In this document: piece by piece, positions 27,938 through 30,361 of the stretch
How positions within the stretch are numbered: position 1 is the first letter of the stretch
Layout of the letters: each line of letters starts with the position of its first letter
Assembly (NCBI GenBank): GCA_947258875.1
Contig: CAMYKB010000039.1
Span: 1-34,408 of the forward strand
Length of the DNA: 34,408 bases
Origin: an uncultured Gammaproteobacteria bacterium
Lineage (GTDB): Bacteria; Pseudomonadota; Gammaproteobacteria; CAMYKB01
Reading direction: 5' to 3'
Position numbers and translations under genes: made by a program
The notes under the pieces: model-generated
Told to the model about the DNA's origin: nothing
Database searches by the model: none
What the model saw: the letters and a program-made list of their open reading frames with translations, nothing else

Positions 27938-28891
27938 ATGGGCGCAACTTACCTGCATGTCGCCGCAGCCGTTATCAGCAACCACCTCGGCGAGATTCTG
28001 ATCACGAAACGTCTGGATCACCTTCACCAGGGCGGCAAATGGGAATTCCCCGGCGGTAAACTCGAAGCCGGGGAAACACCACAGGCTGCATTACAGCGAG
28101 AACTTGAGGAAGAGCTGGGTATTGTTGCGGTCATCGATGAACCGGTGATCCAGGTGCGCCACGATTATCCCGAAAAATCTGTACTGTTGGATGTATGGCA
28201 AGTCAGGCAGTTCGAGGGACACCCCGAAGGTAAGGAAGGCCAAGAATTCCGTTGGGTTGCGCCATCCGGGCTGGCGCAATACAGGTTTCCGGAAGCGAAT
28301 ATACCGATATTAAAAGCAGTCACTCTCCCGCAGGAATATTTGATTACACCCGAGCCCGGAAGTGATAGCGCTGTATTTTTGGCGAAACTCGATGCTGTTC
28401 TGGCTCAGGGGATTGCGCTGGTGCAATTACGCGCAAAATCACTCGCACCGAACATGTATCTTAAGCTCGCGAAACATGCGGTAGAACTCTGCCATCGGCA
28501 TGGTGCAAGGCTATTGATCAATGGCGAGCCCGAGTGGCTGCCCGATACCGGTGCTGACGGTGTACATCTCACAAGCAACAGACTGCATGCTTGTACGGAA
28601 AGGCCGCTGAGTCGTGACTGTCTGGTGGCGGCTTCCTGTCATACGCCTGCTGATATCGCTCAGGCCGAGAAAATCGAAACTGACTTCATCGTGGTATCAC
28701 CCGTTAAGAAGACCGTTAGCCACCCGCAATCCAGGGCGTTAGGTTGGCAGACGTTCAGAGAACTGTGTAACGCTGCGCATATACCGGTATATGCCCTTGG
28801 CGGGATGTCGTCCGAGGATATCACCGAGGCGAAACGTGCGGGAGGGCAGGGCATCGCGGCAATCAGTGGCTTATGGGAAAAGTCAGTTTGA
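27938..28891 (+). CDS. Nudix hydrolase fused to a ThiE/TenI-like domain
   Basis: A 317-residue two-domain protein. The N-terminal domain (about 1-130) carries an exact Nudix box, G40-x5-E46-x7-R54-E-L-x-E-E-x-G61-I, and resembles MutT, which removes 8-oxo-dGTP from the nucleotide pool. The C-terminal domain (about 133-317) resembles thiamine phosphate synthase/TenI, with QLRAKSL, GADGVHL, VAASCHT, VSPVKKT and a GGM/GISG-type phosphate loop. This fusion is known in many gammaproteobacteria at this locus, and the function of its second domain is unclear. It follows argJ by 14 bases and ends one base from the zapD stop on the other strand. Confidence 0.92.
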   Translation: MGATYLHVAAAVISNHLGEILITKRLDHLHQGGKWEFPGGKLEAGETPQAALQRELEEELGIVAVIDEPVIQVRHDYPEKSVLLDVWQVRQFEGHPEGKEGQEFRWVAPSGLAQYRFPEANIPILKAVTLPQEYLITPEPGSDSAVFLAKLDAVLAQGIALVQLRAKSLAPNMYLKLAKHAVELCHRHGARLLINGEPEWLPDTGADGVHLTSNRLHACTERPLSRDCLVAASCHTPADIAQAEKIETDFIVVSPVKKTVSHPQSRALGWQTFRELCNAAHIPVYALGGMSSEDITEAKRAGGQGIAAISGLWEKSV

Positions 28892-28892
28892 C

Positions 28893-29663
28893 TTAAAGCG
28901 CACAGACGGTAATTTCAAACGTTATGTCGTCACTGGCCTGGGATGGCCGTTGGTTCATGTCGGCGTGCTCGAAGAAGCGGATCGTAAAACGTTGTTTGCC
29001 GGCGCTTATCTCGGGGTAGAAGACGCTGTCTGCGGGTAACCTGACACGTATCAGTTGATTGGGTTGATCACTCACCAGAGCCTGTTCATAAAATCCTCTT
29101 GTGGCCTCGGCCTGCTGCAAAGTGCTGCTTTCGCGAACCAGGGTGATTACGACCTTGATGACATTATGAATCTGTATAAATGGATCAATCCAGTCACTAA
29201 GGGTTTTATGTCGTTGTTCATGAGAACGTGTTAACCAGTGATGGTATGCCGGCAGATCGAAGTCGCATGTGCCTCCGGGTATACTGGCCCGTTGTTTTAT
29301 GCTGTTGATAAAATCGTTTTTCCTCAATAGTGCTGCAGGCTGACCACTGATATCGTGCAGGGAGTCGATCAATTGCTTGTGGTTGCTGATAATGGTCTCG
29401 AGTTTTTTCCCATCGACATTGGGTGAGCGGGTCAGGTGCTCGATATTGGCGACCTGCCGCTTGAGTTCCTTCATGAGCTCACTTTTGATATCGCCTCTCG
29501 ATATCAGATCGATGATTTCCAGCAAAGTGATAATGGCGTTGTGGGCATGCCATGCACTTTTTCCATTTAGAGATGTCTTGTAATGCGTGATCAGGTAATC
29601 GAGGCGCAAGAACATTCTGATGCGTTCATTCAGGGGCTGTTCGTATGTAACCGATTTTGTCAC
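28893..29663 (-). CDS. zapD: Cell division protein ZapD
   Basis: A 256-residue cytoplasmic FtsZ-associated protein (formerly YacF, DUF1342) that cross-links FtsZ filaments through the FtsZ C-terminal peptide. The N-terminus, VTYEQPLNERIRMFLRLDYL, lines up with the E. coli ZapD start, which supports the GTG start at 29663. The family ending with FFEHADMNQRPSQASDDITFEITVC is also clear. The gene lies after coaE, as in other gammaproteobacteria. The small zinc protein gene yacG, often found next, is absent, and the Nudix gene stop is one base away. The 95-base gap to coaE contains half of a perfect hairpin. Confidence 0.95.
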   Translation of the reverse strand: MTKSVTYEQPLNERIRMFLRLDYLITHYKTSLNGKSAWHAHNAIITLLEIIDLISRGDIKSELMKELKRQVANIEHLTRSPNVDGKKLETIISNHKQLIDSLHDISGQPAALLRKNDFINSIKQRASIPGGTCDFDLPAYHHWLTRSHEQRHKTLSDWIDPFIQIHNVIKVVITLVRESSTLQQAEATRGFYEQALVSDQPNQLIRVRLPADSVFYPEISAGKQRFTIRFFEHADMNQRPSQASDDITFEITVCAL

Positions 29664-29738
29664 TAATCCATTCCATGTTCGCGGTCGTGATCTGTAGTTA
29701 ACAGATATCTCGCGGCCTATTGTTTTTATTGCGGCATA

Positions 29739-29784
29739 TTAAGGAGTCCATGAACGAATTATGATTCGTTCATGGACTCCTTAA
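29739..29784. repeat. Perfect 46-bp palindrome over the coaE stop codon
   Basis: Two 21-base arms (29739-29759 and 29764-29784) are exact reverse complements around a 4-base loop. The right arm encodes the last residues of CoaE (KESMNES) and includes part of its stop context. Each arm carries AAGGAG, three bases, then ATG AAC GAA, ending after four codons in TGA (plus strand) or TAA (minus strand). Neither side has a T-tract, so it is not a standard terminator. It would form a very stable RNA hairpin at the coaE-zapD junction. Its function is unknown; a local inverted duplication or an assembly fold-back are alternatives. Confidence 0.95.
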
Positions 29785-30361
29785 GGTACTGTTGGTGCAG
29801 TTCCTGTACGCGGTTTTTCAGGTCCACGAGGCTGCTGTTATTTTCAATAATATCATGGGCGTGCTCAAGGCGGGTAGAGCGCGGCAATTGACGGCTCATG
29901 ATCGCCCGAACCTGTGCTTCAGGGCAAGCATCGCGAGTGGTTGTGCGTTTAATTTGTTGACCCTCATCACAGTCAACTACCAGGATTCGGTCAACCAGGT
30001 CCTGCATGCCGGTTTCAATGAGTAAGGGCACAACGATAATGCAATAGGGCGCAGACAGCTGCTTGATCTCAGTACTGATCTCAGCACGCACACGGGGGTG
30101 CAGAATCTGTTCGACGATCTCGCGTTTAGCGGGGTCTGCGAAGATCTGTTCCCTGAGCGCAGCTCTGTTTAACTGGCCGTTTTCGAATAATATGTCCGCT
30201 CCCAGTTGTGCCGCCAATGCCTGTAGCTCAGGCGTGTCAGGTTTGAGTAGGCGGCGAGTGATGTGATCAGCATCAATCAGGGGCGCCCCAAGCTGTGCAA
30301 ACAGCTCTGCAGTAGCGGACTTGCCACAACCGATACCACCGGTAAGACCTATAACCAGCAT
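29759..30361 (-). CDS. coaE: Dephospho-CoA kinase CoaE
   Basis: A 200-residue P-loop kinase that phosphorylates the 3'-hydroxyl of dephospho-CoA in the last step of coenzyme A synthesis. The nucleotide-binding loop GGIGCGKS is at 8-15, and the substrate motif LIDADHITRRLL follows at about 28-39. The conserved VVPLLIETG and VDCDEGQQIKRTTTRD segments are present. It starts 15 bases after the pilD stop on the same strand, and this pilD-coaE-zapD order is typical. The last few codons lie within a perfect palindrome and seem to extend slightly beyond the usual family end. Confidence 0.96.
   Translation of the reverse strand: MLVIGLTGGIGCGKSATAELFAQLGAPLIDADHITRRLLKPDTPELQALAAQLGADILFENGQLNRAALREQIFADPAKREIVEQILHPRVRAEISTEIKQLSAPYCIIVVPLLIETGMQDLVDRILVVDCDEGQQIKRTTTRDACPEAQVRAIMSRQLPRSTRLEHAHDIIENNSSLVDLKNRVQELHQQYLKESMNES

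Follow-up and report, generated by a model that had tools for sequence, protein, structure and literature searches.

The coaE-zapD junction and its hairpin

The window (the whole stretch of DNA analysed, 34,408 nt) carries on its minus strand pilB, pilC, a prepilin-peptidase-like frame, coaE and zapD, which are faced on the plus strand by argJ and a Nudix/ThiE gene. The prepilin-peptidase-like frame had no NCBIfam match, and its name is presumed from its sequence and its neighbours. Dephospho-CoA kinase, 200 aa long, is encoded by coaE (29759-30361, minus strand; TIGR00152, 169 bits for a cut-off of 65.55), and a cell division protein by zapD (28893-29663, minus strand; NF003656, 284.8 bits for a cut-off of 213). 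Their order suggests that the two genes share one transcript. At its far end, zapD converges with the plus-strand Nudix/ThiE gene at 28891-28893, where a single base separates the two stops and no space is left for a terminator.

The end of coaE is occupied by a perfect hairpin of 46 bases (29739-29784), whose two arms (29739-29759 and 29764-29784) match each other perfectly in reverse complement (21 pairs out of 21, of which 8 are G-C). On the minus strand, the proximal arm (29764-29784) encodes the end of CoaE, KESMNES, after part of the codon for Leu-193. It is followed by a loop of 4 nt (29760-29763), and then by the distal arm (29739-29759), which lies beyond the coaE stop. The stop codon itself (29761-29759) has its first two bases in the loop and its last one as the first base of the distal arm. 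A T-tract is absent directly after the stem on both strands (TATGCCGCAA on the minus strand, GGTACTGTTG on the plus strand). The first-pass annotation had described a perfect 46-bp hairpin placed over the coaE stop, overlapping coaE codons and lacking a T-tract, and this description was borne out throughout.

Within the window this is the strongest short-loop perfect hairpin, the runners-up having arms of 10 bp. Folded as RNA, the stem reached −35.3 kcal/mol, against a mean of −8.4 for shuffled sequences (z −10.3), and none of 200 shuffles folded as well. The number of such stems expected by chance, computed from single-base composition with ten loop lengths, is 7×10^-8 in the window and 6×10^-6 in the 3.01 Mb genome. 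This excludes chance and nothing else, because genomes carry selected hairpins, and base composition is the wrong yardstick for a genome that uses them. The hairpin is single-copy: with up to 3 mismatches allowed, its matches in its own genome were its two arms, where a REP-like or other mobile palindromic element would be found in several copies. No RNA family scored above its curated threshold near the hairpin. A relaxed scan returned microRNA precursor families only, with a best score of 36.7 bits for 74 needed, which is what any perfect hairpin would give.

The predicted fold of the whole junction also forms the 21-bp stem. It is followed by an A/U-rich linker (29717-29738, minus strand), predicted to be unpaired save for a weak 3-bp helix, then by a small stem of 6 pairs with a 5-nt loop in the zapD leader (29690-29706, minus strand), and finally by the GTG start of zapD, 75 nt past the hairpin. 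The linker is a possible RNase E entry site.

Each arm had also been noted to carry a ribosome binding site and a start codon, opening a four-codon frame on either strand. These elements are present: AAGGAG is found at 29742-29747 on the plus strand and at 29781-29776 on the minus strand, ATG at 29750-29752 and 29773-29771, respectively, and the frames read M-N-E-L-stop (plus) and M-N-E-S-stop (minus). The minus-strand frame is nothing else than the last four codons of coaE, in frame, its AAGGAG being the Lys and Glu codons of coaE, with the Ser and Met codons next, and the plus-strand copy is the mirror of it. As ribosome binding sites they did not hold up. In both copies the motif and the ATG are 3 nt apart, which is short for a Shine-Dalgarno spacing, and both lie inside the stem, so that we see no reason for either copy to be used. 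Translation of the four-codon frames was rejected on these two grounds, spacing and burial, and the AAGGAG...ATG copies are probably by-products.

The junction in related genomes

A search of genome contigs with coaE recovered no close relative, the best CoaE identity being about 53% in a class sample of 274 genomes. Two sets of relatives were used. The first holds 55 same-class loci, among them the best-scoring part of the 251 genomes that matched in the 274-genome sample. The second holds 80 loci collected through PilB, which are the best 80 among the matches listed, and coaE was found in 64 of them. Among those listed matches the best PilB identities were 78% (L102) and 75% (L101); coaE was not found in L101, and the contig of L102 ends inside coaE. 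Doubtful cases were kept in the counts, namely L052 and L144, in which the frame continues into zapD so that the "stop" is that of zapD, and L102 and L108, which are cut before the stop. Since L041 and L159 have an identical CoaE tail, some records may be present in both sets, which are therefore not strictly independent.

A perfect stem with arms of at least 8 bases over the coaE stop was found in none of the 55 same-class relatives (one of them being L052, with its frame running into zapD), and in none of the 64 PilB-derived loci, of which 61 have a usable coaE stop. Perfect hairpins of this size did occur near the stop, never over it, in 3 of the 55 relatives and 6 of the 64 loci of the second set. 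When 150 nt around the coaE end were folded, the window had the lowest z of the 56 rows (−8.3), as well as the best 50-nt stretch, and the next-lowest values were −5.2 (L026), −3.3 (L048) and −2.8 (L025). In total energy of these 150-nt folds, several relatives were lower than the window.

All the relatives compared are distant, with CoaE about 53% identical or less, and the hairpin is therefore lineage-specific relative to genomes this distant. For the same reason, the nearest CoaE found being about 53% identical, the ancestral junction is not reconstructable. The CoaE proteins of the relatives could mostly be aligned only up to about residue 192 to 196 of 200; the proximal arm thus falls in the variable tail, where the RNA is not constrained by the protein. 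As the stem is not conserved, any selection on it is hypothetical. The first-pass annotation had proposed that the hairpin might control coupling between coaE and zapD. As a conserved device this was not supported, since no perfect stem lies over the coaE stop of the relatives and the zapD start is 75 nt beyond the stem. It had also named the finding that would count against the hairpin, relatives whose arm sequence is mere coding DNA with no pairing partner. With respect to conservation this is what was observed (0/55 and 0/64), but the hairpin is nonetheless real in the present genome.

In L052 and L144, coaE and zapD apparently form one continuous open frame, of 600 aa in L052, which is possibly a CoaE-ZapD fusion.

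Perfect hairpins at gene ends

We counted 38 perfect hairpins with arms of at least 13 bases in 834 kb of the same genome, made up of 41 stretches including the window. Of the first 40 stretches, half start at a contig end, a place where repeats accumulate. The centre of 26 of the 38 hairpins (25 of 37 without that of the window) fell in the 3'-end zone of an ORF, a zone which makes up 9.7% of the bases. A T- or A-run was present near the stem base in 22 of the 38, and 19 of these 22 were in the 3'-end zone. Hairpins devoid of such a run numbered 16; 7 of them were in the 3'-end zone, and 7 had further copies in the sample. Among the single-copy hairpins with no T- or A-run, 4 of 9 were in the 3'-end zone (3 of 8 when that of the window is left aside). 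The test for T-runs is a rough one, and the ORFs were called mechanically. Terminator-like stems thus cluster strongly at 3' ends, and stems like that of coaE do so modestly. Longer stems, with arms of at least 19 bases, numbered 9 in 800 kb of the genome outside the window (5 of them with no T-run), compared to 1 in 888 kb of the relatives. This single case, a 21-bp stem with no T-run located 16 nt past an ORF end in L141, shows that such stems occur in other genomes too.

Placement relative to the stop codon was scored on 1086 ORF ends, covering 1.2 Mb of the genome, and on the 30 ORF ends of the window. Stems with arms of at least 14 bases lay over the stop in 3 of the 1086 cases and 1 of the 30. 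None was found at a control point 200 nt upstream of the stop (0/1086 and 0/30), and 60 nt past the stop there were 10 in the genome and 0 in the window. Even when the arm length was lowered to at least 11, the within-CDS control point gave 0 of 1086. In the relatives, the stop, upstream and downstream points gave 1, 0 and 4 stems out of 760. More stems thus lie 60 nt downstream of the stop than over the stop itself (10 versus 3 of 1086), which is not a favoured place. Two of the three over-stop stems of the genome have A/T-runs like terminators. The third, at L075:11165-11214, is a 19-bp stem with no T-tract. Its 12-nt loop holds the stop of a 329-aa ORF and one of its arms lies in the last codons, which is the layout seen at coaE.

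The coaE hairpin is therefore real, unique in its genome and well outside chance, yet of an ordinary kind, a gene-end RNA stem with no T-tract. However striking, a perfect palindrome should be judged in the light of the gene-end hairpins that its genome already contains, and the present one illustrates neatly, on a small scale, how a perfect gene-end RNA stem can appear with no conserved family behind it.

Origin and possible role

A recent inverted duplication had been listed among the possible explanations in the first-pass annotation, and it fits the anatomy well: the arms are perfect, the spacer is 4 nt, one arm is the coaE tail, and no over-stop stem was found in the relatives, all of them distant. 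According to the available text of PMC8794818, template switching during replication can generate a perfect stem in a single event. The coaE hairpin resembles the stems described in that text by its perfect reverse-complement repeat, its short spacer and a possible one-step origin; it differs in that the event at coaE is deduced rather than reconstructed, for want of a close sister sequence. A replication template switch would have written the terminal coaE codons a second time, as their reverse complement, immediately after the stop, producing the perfect stem at once. The hairpin is probably young.

What such an event left behind may be read in two main ways. The one we tentatively prefer, although we would not put it at an even chance, is that of a lineage-specific gene-end RNA hairpin with no T-tract, of probable template-switch origin, whose function, if any, would be that of a 3'-end or processing stem at the coaE-zapD junction. 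Its main rival, quite possible in our opinion if somewhat doubtful, is that neutral template switching or fold-back repair happened to copy the coaE tail in reverse complement, and that the resulting distal arm has no role. Perfect arms, a 4-nt spacer and the lack of any mismatch suggest youth and suit this neutral origin, as do the single copy, the lack of over-stop stems in the relatives examined, the reported one-step formation of perfect stems (PMC8794818, same text) and the modest 3'-end clustering of single-copy stems with no T-run (4 of 9). On the other hand, not one of the 1086 within-CDS control points carried a stem, even with arms of 11, and the L075 stem shares the layout. Neutral switching alone would not favour gene ends, though purifying selection inside genes could yield the same distribution.

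The preference for a 3'-end or processing stem comes from the junction fold, which resembles stems that stop exonucleases, and from the presence of genes for RNase III (TIGR02191, 218.8 bits for a cut-off of 166.25) and PNPase. The latter is encoded across a run of N, pnp appearing as two frames around unknown bases (L227, about 1459-1500); the run is an assembly gap or a masked stretch, and pnp need not be broken. In the coaE-zapD transcript, the stem would fold once the terminating ribosome has left, since most of the 5' arm, and roughly half of the 3' one, would lie under a ribosome positioned at the coaE stop. Closed, it would block 3'-to-5' exonucleases, be cut by RNase III, or both, and the coaE message would be separated from the downstream zapD part. 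Protection of the mRNA, which had been suggested earlier, is a plausible part of this putative function. Every ribosome that terminates will open a stem spanning the stop, a point against a role as a constant 3' block, and RNase III might destabilise the message instead of protecting it.

Precedents exist in E. coli. The available text of PMC10667835 describes stems that halt 3'-to-5' exonucleases after endonuclease cuts in operons. It also reports on two reporter genes separated by a stem-loop that an RNase E site follows: the upstream gene was expressed more strongly with a stem-loop of −25.4 kcal/mol than with one of −9.3. Like the intercistronic 3'-end stem-loops of selective RNA processing and stabilization presented in that text, the coaE hairpin is highly stable, separates two cistrons at the 3' end of the first one, and is followed by an A/U-rich stretch, here predicted to be mostly unpaired. 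It differs from them in covering the stop and the last codons, in not being conserved, and in being known from its sequence only. With regard to RNase III processing stems, the likeness lies in the perfect 21-bp duplex, whose length of roughly two turns of the helix agrees with the size rule for such stems, and in the presence of the enzyme's gene; cleavage is putative here.

A transcription terminator or attenuator between coaE and zapD would also account for a very stable stem-loop at a gene 3' end, of which the genome has many, but we consider it unlikely. Intrinsic terminators have a T-tract directly after the stem, and none is present here; 8 of the 21 pairs are G-C, the stop codon lies in the loop, and the hairpin was not among the 5 terminator-like sites given by a scan. 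Nor was a minus-strand promoter-like site found between the hairpin and zapD. A ribosome at the coaE stop would moreover hold the hairpin open against terminator action; in E. coli, according to the available part of PMC4824070, the efficiency of a terminator placed 5 bp past a stop codon fell from about 90% to below 10%. A DNA site, either a protein operator or the remnant of a mobile palindromic element, appears very unlikely. The dyad is perfect, and the genome holds a repeated palindrome family and an operator-like palindrome pair (L068:11452-11495, between divergent ORFs), but the hairpin is single-copy, no phage record and only one weak, partial plasmid record (E 0.6) matched it, and a position over a stop codon in an apparent operon would be unusual for an operator. 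Direct support for the protein-binding site put forward earlier was not found. Least probable of all is an assembly or amplification artefact of the fold-back chimera type. The genome is a draft of 67 contigs, with 8 runs of N in 1.2 Mb. The window, however, contains no N; past the distal arm the sequence leads directly to zapD, as expected and after a gap of ordinary size, and on the other side it continues for another 4.6 kb to the end of the window; most of the other long stems of the genome (26 of 38) are at gene 3' ends, as biologically expected.

Finally, hairpins with the stop in the loop, as at coaE and L075:11165-11214, could be ribosome-gated switches that arise repeatedly by one-step template switching of gene tails, a proposal to which we give little credence. 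Ribosomes terminating at the stop would keep the stem open, and the downstream cistron would be transcribed and kept. If upstream translation failed, the stem would close, and a cut by RNase III or a block to exonucleases would change the ratio of the messages. If true, this would make the control of downstream message stability by translation termination easy to test; unless it is, the hairpin is an ordinary one.

A few other palindromes of the genome were noted in passing. The repeated palindrome family mentioned above includes a perfect 34-bp hairpin with no T-tract at L086:5266-5343 (G000:C6:55266-55343), located between convergent ORFs just past the stop of a 631-aa ORF which we take to be acyl-CoA-synthetase-like. 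It had 26 matches in its own genome, a count that includes itself and matches of both strands at the same places. At L068:11452-11495, two adjoining palindromes lie between divergent ORFs and resemble a regulator's operator pair. A 20-bp perfect hairpin with a 4-nt loop at L083:7817-7860 has no nearby ORF in the set and is single-copy in the sample.
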